DNA of 46,779 nt from Bacteroidota bacterium (GTDB lineage: Bacteria; Bacteroidota; Bacteroidia; Bacteroidales; Tenuifilaceae): positions 1 through 46,779 of the forward strand of contig JAKQEF010000196.1 in the NCBI GenBank assembly GCA_029558675.1. Reading direction: 5' to 3'. A program made the translations under genes and the position numbers. This document shows positions 3,221-8,950 of the stretch, piece by piece (within the stretch, counting starts at the first letter, position 1; every line of letters starts with the position of its first letter). The notes beneath the pieces were generated by a model. That model was given only the letters and a program-made list of their open reading frames with translations. It was not told the origin of the DNA and did not search any database.

Positions 3221-4099
3221 TCAATACTTTTGCCTATTTGGCACTACTGCTCTAACACCCCCTCGAGGGTTTGCCACATCGCCTTTGTAGCGGGGTATCA
3301 AATGAATATGAACGTGAAAAACAGATTGCCCTGCTGCTTCACCATCATTTATTCCTACGTTAAAGCCATGGGGATTGTATCGCTTTTCAATGATAGTTTT
3401 GCAACGATTTACCAAGAGCCATAATGCTCTTTGTTCGTGTATGGATAGATCGAAATAGCTTGCAGTATGACGTTTTGGGATAACCAAAGTATGTCCTTTA
3501 TTTACAGGAAAGCCATCTAAAAATGCTACTGCTGTTGCTGTTTCACTTATCAACTCGACCTTTGGATTTAAATTGCAGAACGGGCAATTGGTTCTTCCCT
3601 TTTTTATCTGATTAAAATGCTGATATTCATATATTTCACAATTTTCGTTTTGGAATATACTATTATAGGGTAATACCACATCGCTCTGATAGGTTGGTTT
3701 TTTGTGAACATAATGTGTGCGGAAACCCTCATTTTTCAAATCTCGTCGGACAGCAAAATATGCTTTTCCTGCGGGCTTCAGCAGTTCTGAAACTGACATC
3801 AGCACATCGGCTTGCTCGTTTGGTTCTAAAACATTTAGAACATAATTGCAGATAATCGTGTCAAAGCGTTTTTCGGGCAATTCCGGCCGATAATAGTTGT
3901 CGTAACCAATGATATTGTAACCTGATTTCTGCAAATGGTCTGTATCGTAACCAAAGCCGCAACCAAAATCTAATATTTCGCCTAGCAACAATTTTCGTTC
4001 TTTCAGAATACGGGTAGGGAACGATAACGAAGTTCGTTGAATGGCAGTTAGATGGGGATTGTTTACTTTCTTTTTCATGGCCGGGAAGAATTTTGCCAA
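3221..4099 (-). CDS. Fusion of class I SAM-dependent methyltransferase and HIT-family hydrolase
   Basis: N-terminal half LLGEILDFGCGFGYDTDHL (motif I); C-terminal half CPFCNLNP...HTLVIPKRHTASYFDL...GQSVFHVHIHLIPRYKGD (HIT histidine triad). Confidence 0.9.
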   Translation of the reverse strand: MAKFFPAMKKKVNNPHLTAIQRTSLSFPTRILKERKLLLGEILDFGCGFGYDTDHLQKSGYNIIGYDNYYRPELPEKRFDTIICNYVLNVLEPNEQADVLMSVSELLKPAGKAYFAVRRDLKNEGFRTHYVHKKPTYQSDVVLPYNSIFQNENCEIYEYQHFNQIKKGRTNCPFCNLNPKVELISETATAVAFLDGFPVNKGHTLVIPKRHTASYFDLSIHEQRALWLLVNRCKTIIEKRYNPHGFNVGINDGEAAGQSVFHVHIHLIPRYKGDVANPRGGVRAVVPNRQKY

Positions 4100-5145
4100 T
4101 ACTTAAACCCCATGTTCTCAGCAATTTGAGCGAGAGGTAAGAATGTCTTCTTGTAAATATTGATAAAGTCTTGTTCCGAACAATCCACCAACTCTGTAAG
4201 CGAACCATGCAGAGTTAAATAATCTTCCAATAGCTTGTTGTTCGGGTTTTTGGGGTAGATGGCTTGTATTGCTTTTTGGTGCAATCTGGCAAATGGCTCT
4301 AAGTATGTATCCAGAGAGGGTAGGTTATTGCTTTTAGATGAATTTATGCTTGCATCGGCAGGTAGTAAGTTCCATAACAAGCTATGCGATACGAAGCTCC
4401 AGGGTAAGAAATGGTCTAAATCGTATGCTCTTATGAATAATTCTTTGCCTGTGTATATGCACTTCATTGACCCGGTTATATCAATATAGGTATCCCAAAA
4501 ATTGCGCTGTTTTACAAGCGAATCGCGTGTAATGGGTTTTACCAATTTGGAGGGGAGATCGGGAACATTCGGATTACGTTTTTGAAGAAAGACAGTCAGA
4601 TTCCAAAAAGTAAAATCGCGCAGAATTAAGTAGTTGTCGTTTAAATACTGCTCCCATAGTGGATTAATAGCTATTGCCTCGCCTCTGATGGCATAAATAC
4701 AATTATTTGTGAATGCTTGCGATAGATTAACAACATCCTTGTCGGTTGTATAGCTTATCCATGGCGACAAAAATCGGTAGGGAACATTGAGCGTAAAAAT
4801 CCGAAGTAAACTCTTTACCCTCGTATTCCCAAGCTTATCATTTATTTGTTTTTTAATATCAGTTCTGCTGGCGTCGATGGGAATGCTCAAATCTTTTTGA
4901 AGTTCTATGATTTGATTGTACAAAGAATCGGATTTGCCAAACGACAACCGAAAATAGTGTATGGGATACCACGCTTCCGAAATCATTCCCACAATAATTT
5001 CCCAAAAAGAAATATACCTTTTCCCTGTTTTAACAAAAATTTCAAGAAATGATAAAAACCAATAGTATTTATAGGTTGCAACCGTGTTGTTGTAAATACG
5101 AACCAAACGACTTATTTCGAGCCTGTTGTCTTGTGGAAGATTCAT
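4075..5145 (-). CDS. HNH endonuclease domain protein
   Basis: C-terminal CIYTGKELFIRAYDLDHFLPWSFVSHSLLWNLLPADASINSSKSN is a His-Asn-His type motif. Its 3' end overlaps the MTase-HIT gene by 25 bp. Confidence 0.85.
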   Translation of the reverse strand: MNLPQDNRLEISRLVRIYNNTVATYKYYWFLSFLEIFVKTGKRYISFWEIIVGMISEAWYPIHYFRLSFGKSDSLYNQIIELQKDLSIPIDASRTDIKKQINDKLGNTRVKSLLRIFTLNVPYRFLSPWISYTTDKDVVNLSQAFTNNCIYAIRGEAIAINPLWEQYLNDNYLILRDFTFWNLTVFLQKRNPNVPDLPSKLVKPITRDSLVKQRNFWDTYIDITGSMKCIYTGKELFIRAYDLDHFLPWSFVSHSLLWNLLPADASINSSKSNNLPSLDTYLEPFARLHQKAIQAIYPKNPNNKLLEDYLTLHGSLTELVDCSEQDFINIYKKTFLPLAQIAENMGFKYWQNSSRP

Positions 5146-5148
5146 TTG

Positions 5149-5244
5149 TTATTGGTTGGATTGTGTTATAACACCATTCTCAGAAACTTTCTTGATAATG
5201 CGGAGTTTCTCCTCCTTGGTAAAACCACGTTTTTTCATCATCAT
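5149..5244 (-). pseudogene. Truncated IS3-family OrfA-like transposase N-terminus (remnant)
   Basis: Hand translation gives MMMKKRGFTKEEKLRIIKKVSENGVITQSNQ*, resembling the N-terminus of Bacteroidetes IS3 OrfA proteins (MKKR.(Y/F)(T/S)KEEKL.I(L/I)K...G) before it is cut off. Confidence 0.5.
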
Positions 5245-5282
5245 AAAAGTACGGATTTTTATCTATACTTATGTCCGATGAT

Positions 5283-5624
5283 TTAGGGGGCTGAAACATT
5301 GGAAGCAATTTCTTCTTTCAGTTTAGGAAGGTGATTGATAACAATACTCCAAATTAAATCGTCGGATATTTTGTCGTAACCGTGGGCAATTCTGTTTCTT
5401 GTTCCAATTATTTTATGGACGTTTTCTAAATGGAACTCTTTGTCTCGTTAGATTATTCTATTCGTTGCCTCTCCAATTATTTCTATATTCCTTTCGACAG
5501 CCCGTTTTGTTCTGATGTCGTTAATATATCCATCAAATCTCTTTGGCCTGTCTTCAAAGTAGCTTTCTATCTCTTCTATTGATTGTAAAATGTCGTACAA
5601 CCAAGTTTTAATTTCGCTATCCAT
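5283..5624 (-). pseudogene. hepT: HepT-like HEPN toxin with premature in-frame stop
   Basis: Hand translation: MDSEIKTWLYDILQSIEEIESYFEDRPKRFDGYINDIRTKRAVERNIEIIGEATNRII*RDKEFHLENVHKIIGTRNRIAHGYDKISDDLIWSIVINHLPKLKEEIASNVSAP*. The TAA is at 5448-5450; the HEPN RX4H..Y motif (RNRIAHGY) lies after it. Confidence 0.85.
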
Positions 5625-5916
5625 AAACTAGTTGCTTTGATGAATCAATTGATTGCTTTGAATAAGGATTTTTAATTGCTTTTTCTTCCAACAAATCCAC
5701 ATTACGTTTAAATAGGTTCTCCAATGATTCTTTTAAGTCAAAATAGTTGTCAGCGTATTCATGAAGGTCTACGTCTTGAAAGTCTACGACTAGGTCAACA
5801 TCGCTGTCCTTTTTGAAACTATCTGTCAATACAGAACCAAATGCAAATAGTCGTCTAACTTTGTGCCTTGAACACAAGTCTCGAATTGTATCGATATTTC
5901 TTTCTATTAGGTTCAT
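5617..5916 (-). CDS. mntA: MntA-type minimal nucleotidyltransferase antitoxin
   Basis: FAFGSVLTDSFKKDSDVDLVVDF (GSx10DxD) in a 99-aa protein; overlaps the hepT start by 8 bp. Confidence 0.9.
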   Translation of the reverse strand: MNLIERNIDTIRDLCSRHKVRRLFAFGSVLTDSFKKDSDVDLVVDFQDVDLHEYADNYFDLKESLENLFKRNVDLLEEKAIKNPYSKQSIDSSKQLVYG

Positions 5917-6170: not shown

Positions 6171-7277
6171 TTATTCTTTTCTCAAGCTTGTCAGCTTATA
6201 ATTTGTGCTTCGGCCGCCCTCATTGGCTTCTTCCAAAATACCTTTTTCCATTAAGTCTTTAATATCGCGTAATGCTGTATCTGTTGAAACCCTGGTGATT
6301 TTTGCCCACTTGCTTGTCTGTAGCTTGCCATCAAATCCATCGAACAGCATATTCAAAACAGCTCTTTGCCTTTCGTTGATTGGCGTGTGTTGGTGTTGTT
6401 TCCAAAATTCAGCTTTATGCAATATTCGTTGTGTTGTTTGCTCGGTGGCCAGCATTGCATTTTTAAGACAATGCAAAAACCATTCGAGCCATTCGGTAAT
6501 ATCGCCTGTGCTGTGCTGTACTTTTTGCAACACCTCATAGTAGCGTTTACGTTCTATCAAAATTTGGCTTGACATACTGTAAAAACGTTCGCCGTTATTC
6601 TCGGCACGGGCCAGTAGCATATCGGCTATGGCTCTGGCTATACGCCCATTGCCGTCATCAAATGGGTGAATAATAATAAACCAAAAGTGGGCAATAGCCG
6701 CTTTCAGCACGGGATCGAGCTGCTTATCATTATTAAACCAATCTAAAAACTTGTCCATTTCGGATTTAACCAATTCCGGTGCTACGGCTTCGTAATGGAC
6801 TTTTTCTTTGCCCATGGCACCCGAAACCACCTGCATTTCAACGGTGCGGTATTTGCCTACTTCTATCTTATAAGGCCCGCTGTATCCTGTGGGGAAAAGG
6901 GCTGCGTGCCAACCAAACAAACGTTTTTCAGTTAATGGCAAGGAGTATTGCTGTGTAGCTTCAAGCATCATTTCTACAATACCCTCAATATGGCGATTGC
7001 TTGGCACAAGGCCTGCAGTGTTGATCCCTAAACGTCGTGCTATGGAAGAGCGTACTTGCTCATAGTTTAGCAGCTCTCCTTCTATTTCGTAAGATTTTAC
7101 TACGTCTAAGGTTAATGCCGTCAGTGTTACTTCTTCTTTGGCATAAAAACCTAATGCGTTCATCTGTCCGATGATTTTACCTTGCATCAAGCGGACTTCG
7201 CCAAACACAGCATTGATGGCCTTATCTTGCCAGGTGAAATCTGTCCAATTTTTATGCTCGTATATGTATTTAGCCAT
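6171..7277 (-). CDS. Fic family protein (N-terminal DUF4172-like, C-terminal winged helix)
   Basis: HPFDDGNGRIARAIADMLLAR (Fic HPFx[D/E]GN[G/K]R motif); KSYEIEGE fits the class II (S/T)xxxE(G/N) inhibitory motif. Start taken at MAKYIYEHKNW. Confidence 0.92.
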   Translation of the reverse strand: MAKYIYEHKNWTDFTWQDKAINAVFGEVRLMQGKIIGQMNALGFYAKEEVTLTALTLDVVKSYEIEGELLNYEQVRSSIARRLGINTAGLVPSNRHIEGIVEMMLEATQQYSLPLTEKRLFGWHAALFPTGYSGPYKIEVGKYRTVEMQVVSGAMGKEKVHYEAVAPELVKSEMDKFLDWFNNDKQLDPVLKAAIAHFWFIIIHPFDDGNGRIARAIADMLLARAENNGERFYSMSSQILIERKRYYEVLQKVQHSTGDITEWLEWFLHCLKNAMLATEQTTQRILHKAEFWKQHQHTPINERQRAVLNMLFDGFDGKLQTSKWAKITRVSTDTALRDIKDLMEKGILEEANEGGRSTNYKLTSLRKE

Positions 7278-7445
7278 TGCCGGAAACTTAATATGCATCA
7301 AATATACAAATTATTCAACGCATAAATGCGGTGAATGTTTCGTTTTTTCACCGCACCCTGAAAAAAATCATTTGATGCTGTTTCTATTTGTTTTAAAGGG
7401 TCTGTCGGCCTAACAATGGCTAAATGTATTGATTTTCTGTTGCCT

Positions 7446-8123
7446 TTACAATACAAATATAAGAAACAAAACGAGCCACGTTTTTTTAAAATCCCTGTTT
7501 GTCAGTAAATATGCTGCACCAAACAAAAATCCTGCTAATGTCGATAGTACACCGTTTTGAATATCAAAATGCCCTCTGCTGATTATATGTGCTATCCCCC
7601 AAGTCAATCCACAGATTATCCCACCCCAAGGTACATTGCGTTGTTTTGTCCATATTTCAAATGCCTTTTGCCCAAAGACAATAATCAACAAAAACAGCAA
7701 GATTTCGAACATATAGTAAATGTATTGAAATATGAATTTTAGTAAACCATTATAATTGAATTCCTTTATAACTTTAAAACCGTCCCACGCTAAAAAACTT
7801 ATCAATATAGATAATATAATACCAAGCAATACTGCAAGCACTTGCCACAATTTCATTTTCGTGCCTTTTACAAATAGGTCAAATTTCAGTTTGTTTTTTG
7901 CTATACGAATAAGCAAATAAGCGATACTGGCCCAAATTACGCAAGTAATGACCCAATGTATAATATTTTGCAATACCGAAAATTCTCTTAATTGTACTCC
8001 GAAAACAAGCGGTTCCCAGCCATAAGCGTGTAGAGCCTCAGTTCCGAGTCCCACAAAGGCACTCAATGAAAGTAATATATACTTCCACCCGGATTGATTA
8101 ACAATTTCATCATTTGTACTCAT
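7446..8123 (-). CDS. Multi-pass membrane protein, CPBP (CAAX-protease/bacteriocin-immunity)-like
   Basis: About six TM segments and GLTWGIAHIISRGHFDIQNGVLSTLAGFLFGAAYLLT, which resembles the later CPBP motifs. No clear EExxxR motif. Confidence 0.5.
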   Translation of the reverse strand: MSTNDEIVNQSGWKYILLSLSAFVGLGTEALHAYGWEPLVFGVQLREFSVLQNIIHWVITCVIWASIAYLLIRIAKNKLKFDLFVKGTKMKLWQVLAVLLGIILSILISFLAWDGFKVIKEFNYNGLLKFIFQYIYYMFEILLFLLIIVFGQKAFEIWTKQRNVPWGGIICGLTWGIAHIISRGHFDIQNGVLSTLAGFLFGAAYLLTNRDFKKTWLVLFLIFVL

Positions 8124-8370
8124 TTCCTTTACTTCTTTGTCTTTTCAACGATCGATATTTCGTTTAATTTTCAATTCTTTACGTCATTTTCCGCCGCGCT
8201 GTCGTCCGCTTGCTGATATAGTTCCGTGACTTGGTTCCTACGAAAGAACGTCGGGATCGGGCCGTAGAGTGCCCAACACATACCCTGCGAGCCATCGACC
8301 TACCAAAGTTACGCAAATTTATCCAAGGGGCAAGTTACCCGATAATATCTGAGCTGAAACCAAGCCGTTG

Positions 8371-8715
8371 TTACCTGCTGGGGTTTCTTTCGGGGTCATT
8401 AATTTTCGCTGGGTCTTGTCGGGTGTCAAATACGTCCGTGAAGAGAATGCCTTCGGGAATTTGTTTGTAGACAACCTTGTGGTTGCCTACAACTAGGTAT
8501 CTGTGGTCTTCGCCAAGTTCCTTCAGGGTTTCTTCTATTTGACCCGATTGGGGATGATGCTCCAGCTGTCGCACTGCTTTGAATACATCACTCTTAATTT
8601 TCTTAGCTACCTTTAGGCTCGCTTTAACCCTGTAGTAGGAATAGATTTTGGCGAGCACGGATGACGCAAAGTCTGTCCAAAGGATTTTCATGGGGTTACC
8701 AATCTTCGGATTCAA
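8371..8715 (-). CDS. ParE/RelE-type toxin
   Basis: ILWTDFASSVLAKIYSYYRVKASLKVAKKIKSDVFKAVRQLEHHPQSGQIEETLKELGEDHRYLVVGNHKVVYKQIPEGILFTDVFDTRQDP. Confidence 0.85.
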   Translation of the reverse strand: MNPKIGNPMKILWTDFASSVLAKIYSYYRVKASLKVAKKIKSDVFKAVRQLEHHPQSGQIEETLKELGEDHRYLVVGNHKVVYKQIPEGILFTDVFDTRQDPAKINDPERNPSR

Positions 8716-8950
8716 GCTCTAACTCCTGCTGCGTCTTTACCCTGCCCGCAAGGTAGTCTTTATTAGAGAGTTCAGCCCTGTCGATGAGCTGCTGACGGGT
8801 GAGCCGTTTGGGTTCATCCTGTTCACCCCTTCTGGCTTGGGCAATAGCACTCTCAATTTTCAAAAACAGGCTTTCGTCCTGAAGGTTAACAAGATACCTG
8901 ATGACATCATATTTTCTGGTCTCCAAATTCATCGCTCTGCATTTTAGCAC
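8696..8950 (-). CDS. Antitoxin of the ParE/RelE-type pair
   Basis: 84-aa charged protein immediately upstream of and overlapping the toxin; RLTRQQLIDRAELSNKDYLAGRVKTQQELELESEDW is typical of such antitoxins. Confidence 0.75.
   Translation of the reverse strand: MLKCRAMNLETRKYDVIRYLVNLQDESLFLKIESAIAQARRGEQDEPKRLTRQQLIDRAELSNKDYLAGRVKTQQELELESEDW

Follow-up and report, generated by a model that had tools for sequence, protein, structure and literature searches.

Organisation of the locus

Two overlapping genes lie on the minus strand near the beginning of the window, the whole 46,779-nucleotide stretch of DNA that was analysed. The upstream member (4075..5145) encodes an HNH nuclease of 356 amino acids, here called type A; its reading frame is supported by a PF13395 match (2.2e-10) and by 35 diverse homologues. 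The downstream member (3221..4099) encodes a class I SAM-dependent methyltransferase (MTase) fused to a histidine-triad (HIT) domain, recognised by PF13489 and PF01230, and its start was compared over 80 loci. An earlier note on this DNA had described an HNH gene overlapping an MTase-HIT fusion gene, and both reading frames were confirmed at these positions and on this strand.

How far do the two genes overlap? Read from a TTG at 4099, the MTase-HIT frame encodes 292 amino acids; read from an ATG at 4078, it encodes 285. The ATG is conserved and is probably the true start. The junction letters, ccATGAaaaag, place this start codon over the HNH stop codon (4075..4078, minus strand), and the resulting 4-bp ATG/TGA arrangement is kept at 48 of the 80 homologous loci in the start-codon comparison. 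The overlap is thus most likely a 4-bp ATGA junction rather than the 25 bp given in the earlier note, a figure that presumes the upstream TTG. The suggestion that the overlap couples translation of the two genes keeps its overlap, on a basis of 4 bp and not of 25 bp.

Toxin-antitoxin modules and an IS stub, which the earlier note had reported around the pair, are both present in the window. A short transposase-orfA-like stub (MMMKKRGFTKEEKLRIIKKVSENGV...; about 5150-5245, minus strand) lies immediately upstream of the HNH start. At 5300-5916, on the same strand, an MNT nucleotidyltransferase gene (PF01909) is followed by a HEPN/DUF86-like frame with an in-frame TAA; as it reads in the sequence, this MNT-HEPN pair is broken, its HEPN half being interrupted. 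Further along (6171-8950, minus strand) are genes for a Fic protein with DUF4172, a CAAX-protease-like membrane protein, and a ParE-like toxin with an 84-aa partner.

The HNH nuclease and the MTase-HIT fusion

The HNH protein consists of a helical N-terminal region with a TYK motif (Y25 K26), a hypervariable segment at about residues 81-120, and a Cas9-type HNH domain. The latter (residues 229-276; 4318..4461, minus strand) matches PF13395, HNH_4, with E=2e-10 and 40.8 bits against a cut-off of 22, and its catalytic residues (C229, D244-H245, N259, N268 and K271) are conserved, which places the protein in this family. H245, N259, N268 and K271 are invariant in A3, the alignment of HNH homologues, and the catalytic pattern is present in 73 of 76 type A and in all 12 type B nucleases. 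Residues 81-120 are the most variable stretch of type A, and the catalytic residues 241-260 the most conserved. An AlphaFold model of the protein (pLDDT 86, pTM 0.56; like the other structure models, a single chain) found nothing at E<=0.001 in a fold search, Cas9 HNH domains being the sole resemblance.

The MTase domain of the fusion protein spans about residues 16-160 (3620..4054, minus strand). It matches PF13489 (E=5e-11), a cyanobacterial relative (hhalign, 3.5e-17) and the N-terminal part of TIGR04096, to which residues 16-102 align with E=4e-17. Its motif I (DFGCGFGYD), D67, N89 and R118-R119-D120 are invariant or nearly so among 91 homologues. The earlier note had found no DNA-MTase motif IV (N/D-PP-Y/W) in this half, and this holds: the equivalent position reads NYVLNVL, in which N89 is invariant in the 91 homologues.

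The HIT domain follows (3224..3586, minus strand) and matches PF01230 at residues 183-272 (E=6e-24), PDB entry 3imi (5e-20), and 1y23 and 3imi in Foldseek (E about 6e-9). With the HIT fold and an intact HxHxH triad (HVHIHLIPRY; H262-V-H264-I-H266, followed by a Fhit-like PR), the domain belongs to the HIT superfamily. It also has a CxxC (C172, C175) and a conserved C-terminal tail, GDxxNPxGGVRxVxPxxxxY. DFGCGFGYD and HVHIHLIPRY, the motifs from which the earlier note had identified the two halves, are conserved in the 91 homologues, and among them the residues that bind SAM, like the Gln and His residues of HIT, vary little or not at all.

Pairing and distribution

Loci were collected in a scan of one genome per species. 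The best 80 of 255 loci all come from Bacteroidota, and rumen MAGs dominate among them. Since the search relied on MTase motifs, relatives with HIT alone are undersampled in this set. Wherever both clusters could be called, the HNH gene lies directly upstream of MTase-HIT (84 of 84 loci).

To assess distribution, 397 Bacteroidota genomes were drawn evenly. Full-length MTase-HIT occurs in 17 of these (about 4% of the sampled species), and in 16 of the 17 it adjoins the HNH family (Fisher p about 1e-24). The remaining genome (G326) carries an HNH_2 nuclease 3 bp upstream instead. In three other genomes of the 397 the HNH family is matched strongly and over its full length, and MTase-HIT is absent (the orphan nucleases of G060, G119 and G289); an orphan MTase-HIT was not seen in this draw. 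The pairing is not due to chance. The earlier note had chosen the co-occurrence of the two proteins' homologues beforehand as one of the points on which its proposal depended, and across genomes that co-occurrence is near-exceptionless.

Both genes are under purifying selection, with dN/dS of 0.01-0.24 in close locus pairs. Is the pair carried by phages or plasmids? A phage origin was rejected, since among 2.9 million viral contigs there were only three weak matches, confined to the MTase, and the other phage matches were HIT-only. Plasmids yielded no full-length MTase-HIT; their matches were HIT-only or HNH-only and led to the wider family described below.

Exchange of the nuclease

Between the sister species Algoriphagus limi (L070) and A. 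kandeliae (L091), nucleotide identity is 94% across the 8.8 kb that lead to the HNH gene and 91% across the 10.8 kb that begin with MTase-HIT. Their HNH genes have no detectable DNA similarity, and the encoded proteins, one of type A and one of type B, have the TYK motif and the HNH core in common. The HNH has thus been replaced by a non-homologous HNH where MTase-HIT is about 94% identical. At least six switches between types A and B can be placed on the MTase-HIT tree.

In several other locus pairs, dS is saturated for HNH or reaches two to three times the MTase-HIT value, a pattern indicative of replacement of alleles by recombination. Positive selection was rejected as the cause of HNH divergence, as its dN/dS is 0.03-0.14 and dS is raised. 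The Algoriphagus pair occupies a fixed chromosomal site between genes that were named, from sequence, as ATP-synthase gamma and DoxX-like. The pair is therefore not always on an obvious mobile element.

These exchanges bear on restriction-modification. The earlier note had considered an ordinary restriction-modification pair unlikely, and this doubt grows with the finding that a non-homologous gene can take the place of the nuclease gene while the MTase stays as it is. An ordinary type II pair, in which nuclease and MTase would change together, was rejected on the missing motif IV and the swap, and a base-methylating system is unlikely given that motif IV and a target-recognition domain are both absent and the nuclease is freely swapped.

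A defence-rich neighbourhood

Thirteen of 20 neighbour genes had a PADLOC match at E<1e-20, compared with one of 20 random Bacteroidales ORFs; the 20 genes were ten recurrent families and ten singletons, partly hand-picked. Recognised defence families account for at least 29 of the 60 same-strand +1 genes, six of which rest on an Mks-type operon recognised via its neighbours. The pair is thus enriched in defence islands, and its surroundings, which the earlier note had allowed might prove to be of a non-mobile housekeeping kind, are defence-rich against the random-ORF control.

The same-strand genes downstream are very diverse. They include Wadjet I JetA, an MksE/DUF3584/DUF7281 operon of Mks/Wadjet type, and Hachiman HamA and HamB, together with Mokosh-like, DdmD-like, Lamassu-like (LmuB), PbeA/PbeC-like, SspD-like, TIR-pAgo, HEC-01A and PDC-S60 genes. 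AbiL and PDC-S02 are among the genes upstream. Upstream genes are separated by gaps as short, and co-oriented as frequently, as those downstream. This means that the pair sits inside islands and does not head one operon, and the idea that it always comes first in an operon was rejected for the same reason. Neighbours differ even between MTase-HIT proteins that are more than 94% identical, and in the window and in Algoriphagus the pair has no partner defence operon. The pair may merely live in gene-dense islands, and a location in defence islands can be hitch-hiking.

Two neighbouring operons deserve mention for their own sake. In seven loci (L024, L028, L036, L081, L084, L087 and L096) the pair is followed by a four-gene operon with MksE (PF21980), a DUF3584 SMC-like protein and DUF7281; its proteins had no match in PADLOC-DB 2.0.0 at 1e-5, and it may be an uncovered Wadjet variant. 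In rumen Bacteroidales (L045, L039, L047), Pbe-like operons (PbeA, PbeC/LmuB-like) occur with the families c48 (AAA-like) and c5 (about 190 aa).

HIT as the constant partner of HNH nucleases

Is the MTase necessary to the pair? The same HIT clade, marked by its GDxxxPxGGVR...Y tail, pairs with four HNH subfamilies and is also fused to HNH. HIT alone was seen with nucleases of types B, C, D or HNH_2. Among close type-B relatives, MTase-HIT comes after the nuclease in L207 and HIT alone in L205 and L206, with an identical 13-nt ORF overlap; L183 likewise has HIT alone, without the MTase. The clade adjoins type C nucleases (L108, L109, L220, L223, L233), type D nucleases in Polaromonas (L105) and Aromatoleum (L107), and HNH_2 nucleases (L161, L163, L222, and L155, where the partner is MTase-HIT). 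In two loci an HNH domain (PF01844) and a HIT domain form a single protein (L238:877-1872; L242:2-967). None of 14 housekeeping HIT loci lay near such nucleases, and three of 11 assessable strong stand-alone HIT matches had no visible HNH neighbour, one of these being beside a masked stretch.

On these sequence comparisons, the HIT-nuclease pairing is the core and the MTase an optional add-on. Of the nuclease, HIT and MTase combination put forward in the earlier note, the HIT-nuclease part is constant and the MTase optional. The HNH subfamilies have only the catalytic core and the TYK motif in common, which counts against assuming a common target.

Other arrangements occur around these nucleases. 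Type-B nucleases are fused to another class I MTase in Pseudoalteromonas, Azospirillum, Sphingobium and Roseomonas; in L117-L120, from Alpha- and Gammaproteobacteria, a class I MTase forms the N-terminus of the type-B HNH, with domain-level PADLOC matches only. In one genome (G238) the N-terminal MTase fusion adjoins MTase-HIT. Type-A relatives from cyanobacteria have a helix-turn-helix at their N-terminus, and type-B neighbours include a NUDIX gene (L185) and a PRA-PH/NTP pyrophosphohydrolase gene (L122).

Links to DNA phosphorothioation

TIGR04096 describes a DNA phosphorothioation-associated putative methyltransferase. Members of this family lie directly upstream of dndBCDE (L250) or beside a cysteine desulfurase and DUF4007 (L251), and type-A HNH relatives without MTase-HIT occur in a dnd island (G119, L193) or beside a cysteine desulfurase-DUF4007-ATPase set (L112, L197). 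The set with the large ATPase, flanked by a type-A HNH or a TIGR04096 MTase, extends over L112:3995-9068, L197:7857-14702 and L251:1-7455.

The MTase half of the pair stays outside TIGR04096, at 62.1 bits against a cut-off of 150, and shows no dnd link: DndC was found in none of the 17 MTase-HIT genomes, a sample too small for this count to carry meaning. Ssp or Pbe genes lie beside a handful of pair loci only. An obligate link with phosphorothioation was rejected on the DndC result. HINT1 converts dGMPS into dGMP and H2S, and HIT enzymes can desulfurise nucleoside phosphorothioates (PMC8775712); on chemical grounds the HIT domain could thus act on nucleotides that carry sulfur, which is a lead rather than a result.

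Proposed function and alternatives

What might the pair do? Probably, the two genes form a complete defence module of Bacteroidota that has spread horizontally; that it acts in defence, targets DNA and recognises modification is our inference. The HNH protein would be the DNA-cutting effector, with recognition set by its varying N-terminal region or by the varying gene as a whole. MTase-HIT would process some nucleotide, or a conjugate of one, that is linked to the nuclease's activity, and the cell would thereby survive or the nuclease be correctly controlled. In the preferred version of this chemistry, nucleotide sanitation, the nuclease would attack DNA according to its modification state, while HIT, with the MTase as an optional extra, would destroy or neutralise odd nucleotides that would otherwise enter host DNA and make it a target. 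Sanitation is a tentative choice, and a good deal more doubtful than the defence role itself. We place it about level with, or slightly above, hydrolysis of a signal, since HIT is a nucleotide hydrolase, as are the NUDIX and PRA-PH partners seen in two loci, and since relatives lie in DNA-modification islands. The broader idea, that HNH with HIT and an optional MTase is a general undescribed defence architecture, in which unrelated HNH families each use one HIT clade that makes the nuclease safe or switches it on, is plausible at somewhat less than even odds.

The hydrolysis of a signal, as doubtful as sanitation, would have MTase-HIT make or destroy a nucleotide messenger that switches HNH on during infection. 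The messenger might be a dinucleoside polyphosphate, a methylated cap-like NpnN, or an AMP conjugate such as SAM-AMP. Fhit/Ap4A-type enzymes split dinucleotides, and the HIT domain here is Fhit-like (GQ-x-x-x-HxHxH-x-IPR), with its predicted nucleophile H264 intact; a conjugate resembling SAM-AMP would fit a protein that joins a SAM-binding domain to an AMP-hydrolysing one. One nucleotide-signalling defence system, Thoeris type II, already includes a HIT protein, ThsC (PMC8565338). However, unrelated HNH nucleases would all need to read one signal, no synthase or ligand-binding domain is linked to the pair, and the NUDIX and PRA-PH neighbours suit nucleotide breakdown equally well. Could MTase-HIT instead mark the cell's own DNA in some general way, perhaps on the backbone, with HNH cutting unmarked DNA? 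The relationship of the MTase to a family found directly upstream of dndBCDE, the type-A HNH relatives in dnd or cysteine desulfurase-DUF4007 islands and the MTase-HNH fusions of other phyla agree with such an unusual restriction-modification system, as does the finding that phosphorothioate writers stay constant while the restriction parts that go with them can be exchanged (PMC10853773). It is nevertheless improbable: the pair has neither a target-recognition domain nor motif IV, no known way of writing DNA marks involves HIT, and the close nuclease relatives in L205, L206 and L183 have HIT alone and no MTase.

Two further readings are less likely again. In a toxin-antitoxin system, HNH would be a DNA-cutting toxin and MTase-HIT an enzymatic antitoxin, one that could tolerate an exchanged toxin; two overlapping genes, a patchy distribution and other adjoining toxin-antitoxin genes would be in keeping with this. 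A simple system of this type is made less likely by the existence of orphan nucleases (G060, G119, G289) where no orphan MTase-HIT was seen, the reverse of the usual situation, and by the HNH-HIT fusions, which show that the two domains can be joined. Least likely is an accessory or mobility module that helps to spread or regulate adjoining defence operons. The short gaps to many different defence genes, and the change of neighbours around MTase-HIT proteins more than 94% identical, are what it would predict, but those neighbours are equally variable on both sides, and the pairs of the window and of Algoriphagus stand without a partner defence operon.

If the defence reading is true, an unrecognised defence module is present in about 4% of Bacteroidota species, among them inhabitants of gut and rumen, and in it a DNA nuclease is served by a HIT enzyme, a type of protein with few established roles in bacteria. 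The broader HNH-HIT architecture would represent a new principle, a nuclease with nucleotide sanitation or signal hydrolysis, rather than another restriction-modification or toxin-antitoxin system. The Algoriphagus swap offers a ready-made experiment, with the same MTase-HIT and two different nucleases in sister species, and, through the pair, the orphan family of phosphorothioation-associated methyltransferases is connected with two genes that can be tested as a unit.

Comparison with known systems

The earlier note had proposed that the pair is undescribed, and no named system was matched in PADLOC-DB or NCBIfam. PADLOC-DB 2.0.0 gave no full-length match for either protein, only domain-level ones (ThsC over 69 residues, the Cas9 HNH domain, and PDC-M01B at 0.01), and no NCBIfam model describes the pair. 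In the literature on HIT or histidine-triad proteins with HNH, nuclease or defence, a description of the pair was not found, ThsC being the only related case. ThsC, which matches over 69 residues at 2.9e-13, likewise places HIT in a defence setting, but the similarity is at the level of the HIT superfamily and the partner here is an HNH nuclease; ThsA and ThsB were absent among the recurrent neighbour families examined.

With Cas9 and IscB-type HNH domains (PF13395) the nuclease has the catalytic DH...N...N..K arrangement in common. In contrast to them, it has no RuvC, bridge helix or guide-RNA parts, and its helical N-terminal region has no close solved relative. The MTase half has the S-x-P and GCGxGxD...YVLN signature of TIGR04096, but is short, fused to HIT and below the cut-off of that family. 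HNH nucleases such as ScoMcrA and SspE are associated with phosphorothioation systems (PMC7461809, PMC9646914, PMC10853773). As in the present pair, HNH effectors of the Dnd, Ssp and Pbe systems are exchanged around a constant partner, and some loci are common to both; the pair differs in that no sulfur-binding, SRA or DUF262 domain was found in it and that it lacks a DndACDE writer.

The HIT domain has the fold of the Fhit/HinT-type HIT hydrolases (PF01230; 3imi, 1y23, 2fit), together with their HxHxH triad and catalytic Gln, and the CxxC is also a feature of zinc HIT proteins. Unlike these hydrolases, the HIT domain described here has an MTase fused to it or a nuclease as its partner, ends in the conserved GDxxxPxGGVR...Y tail, and belongs to a clade distinct from the housekeeping HIT copies of the sampled genomes.
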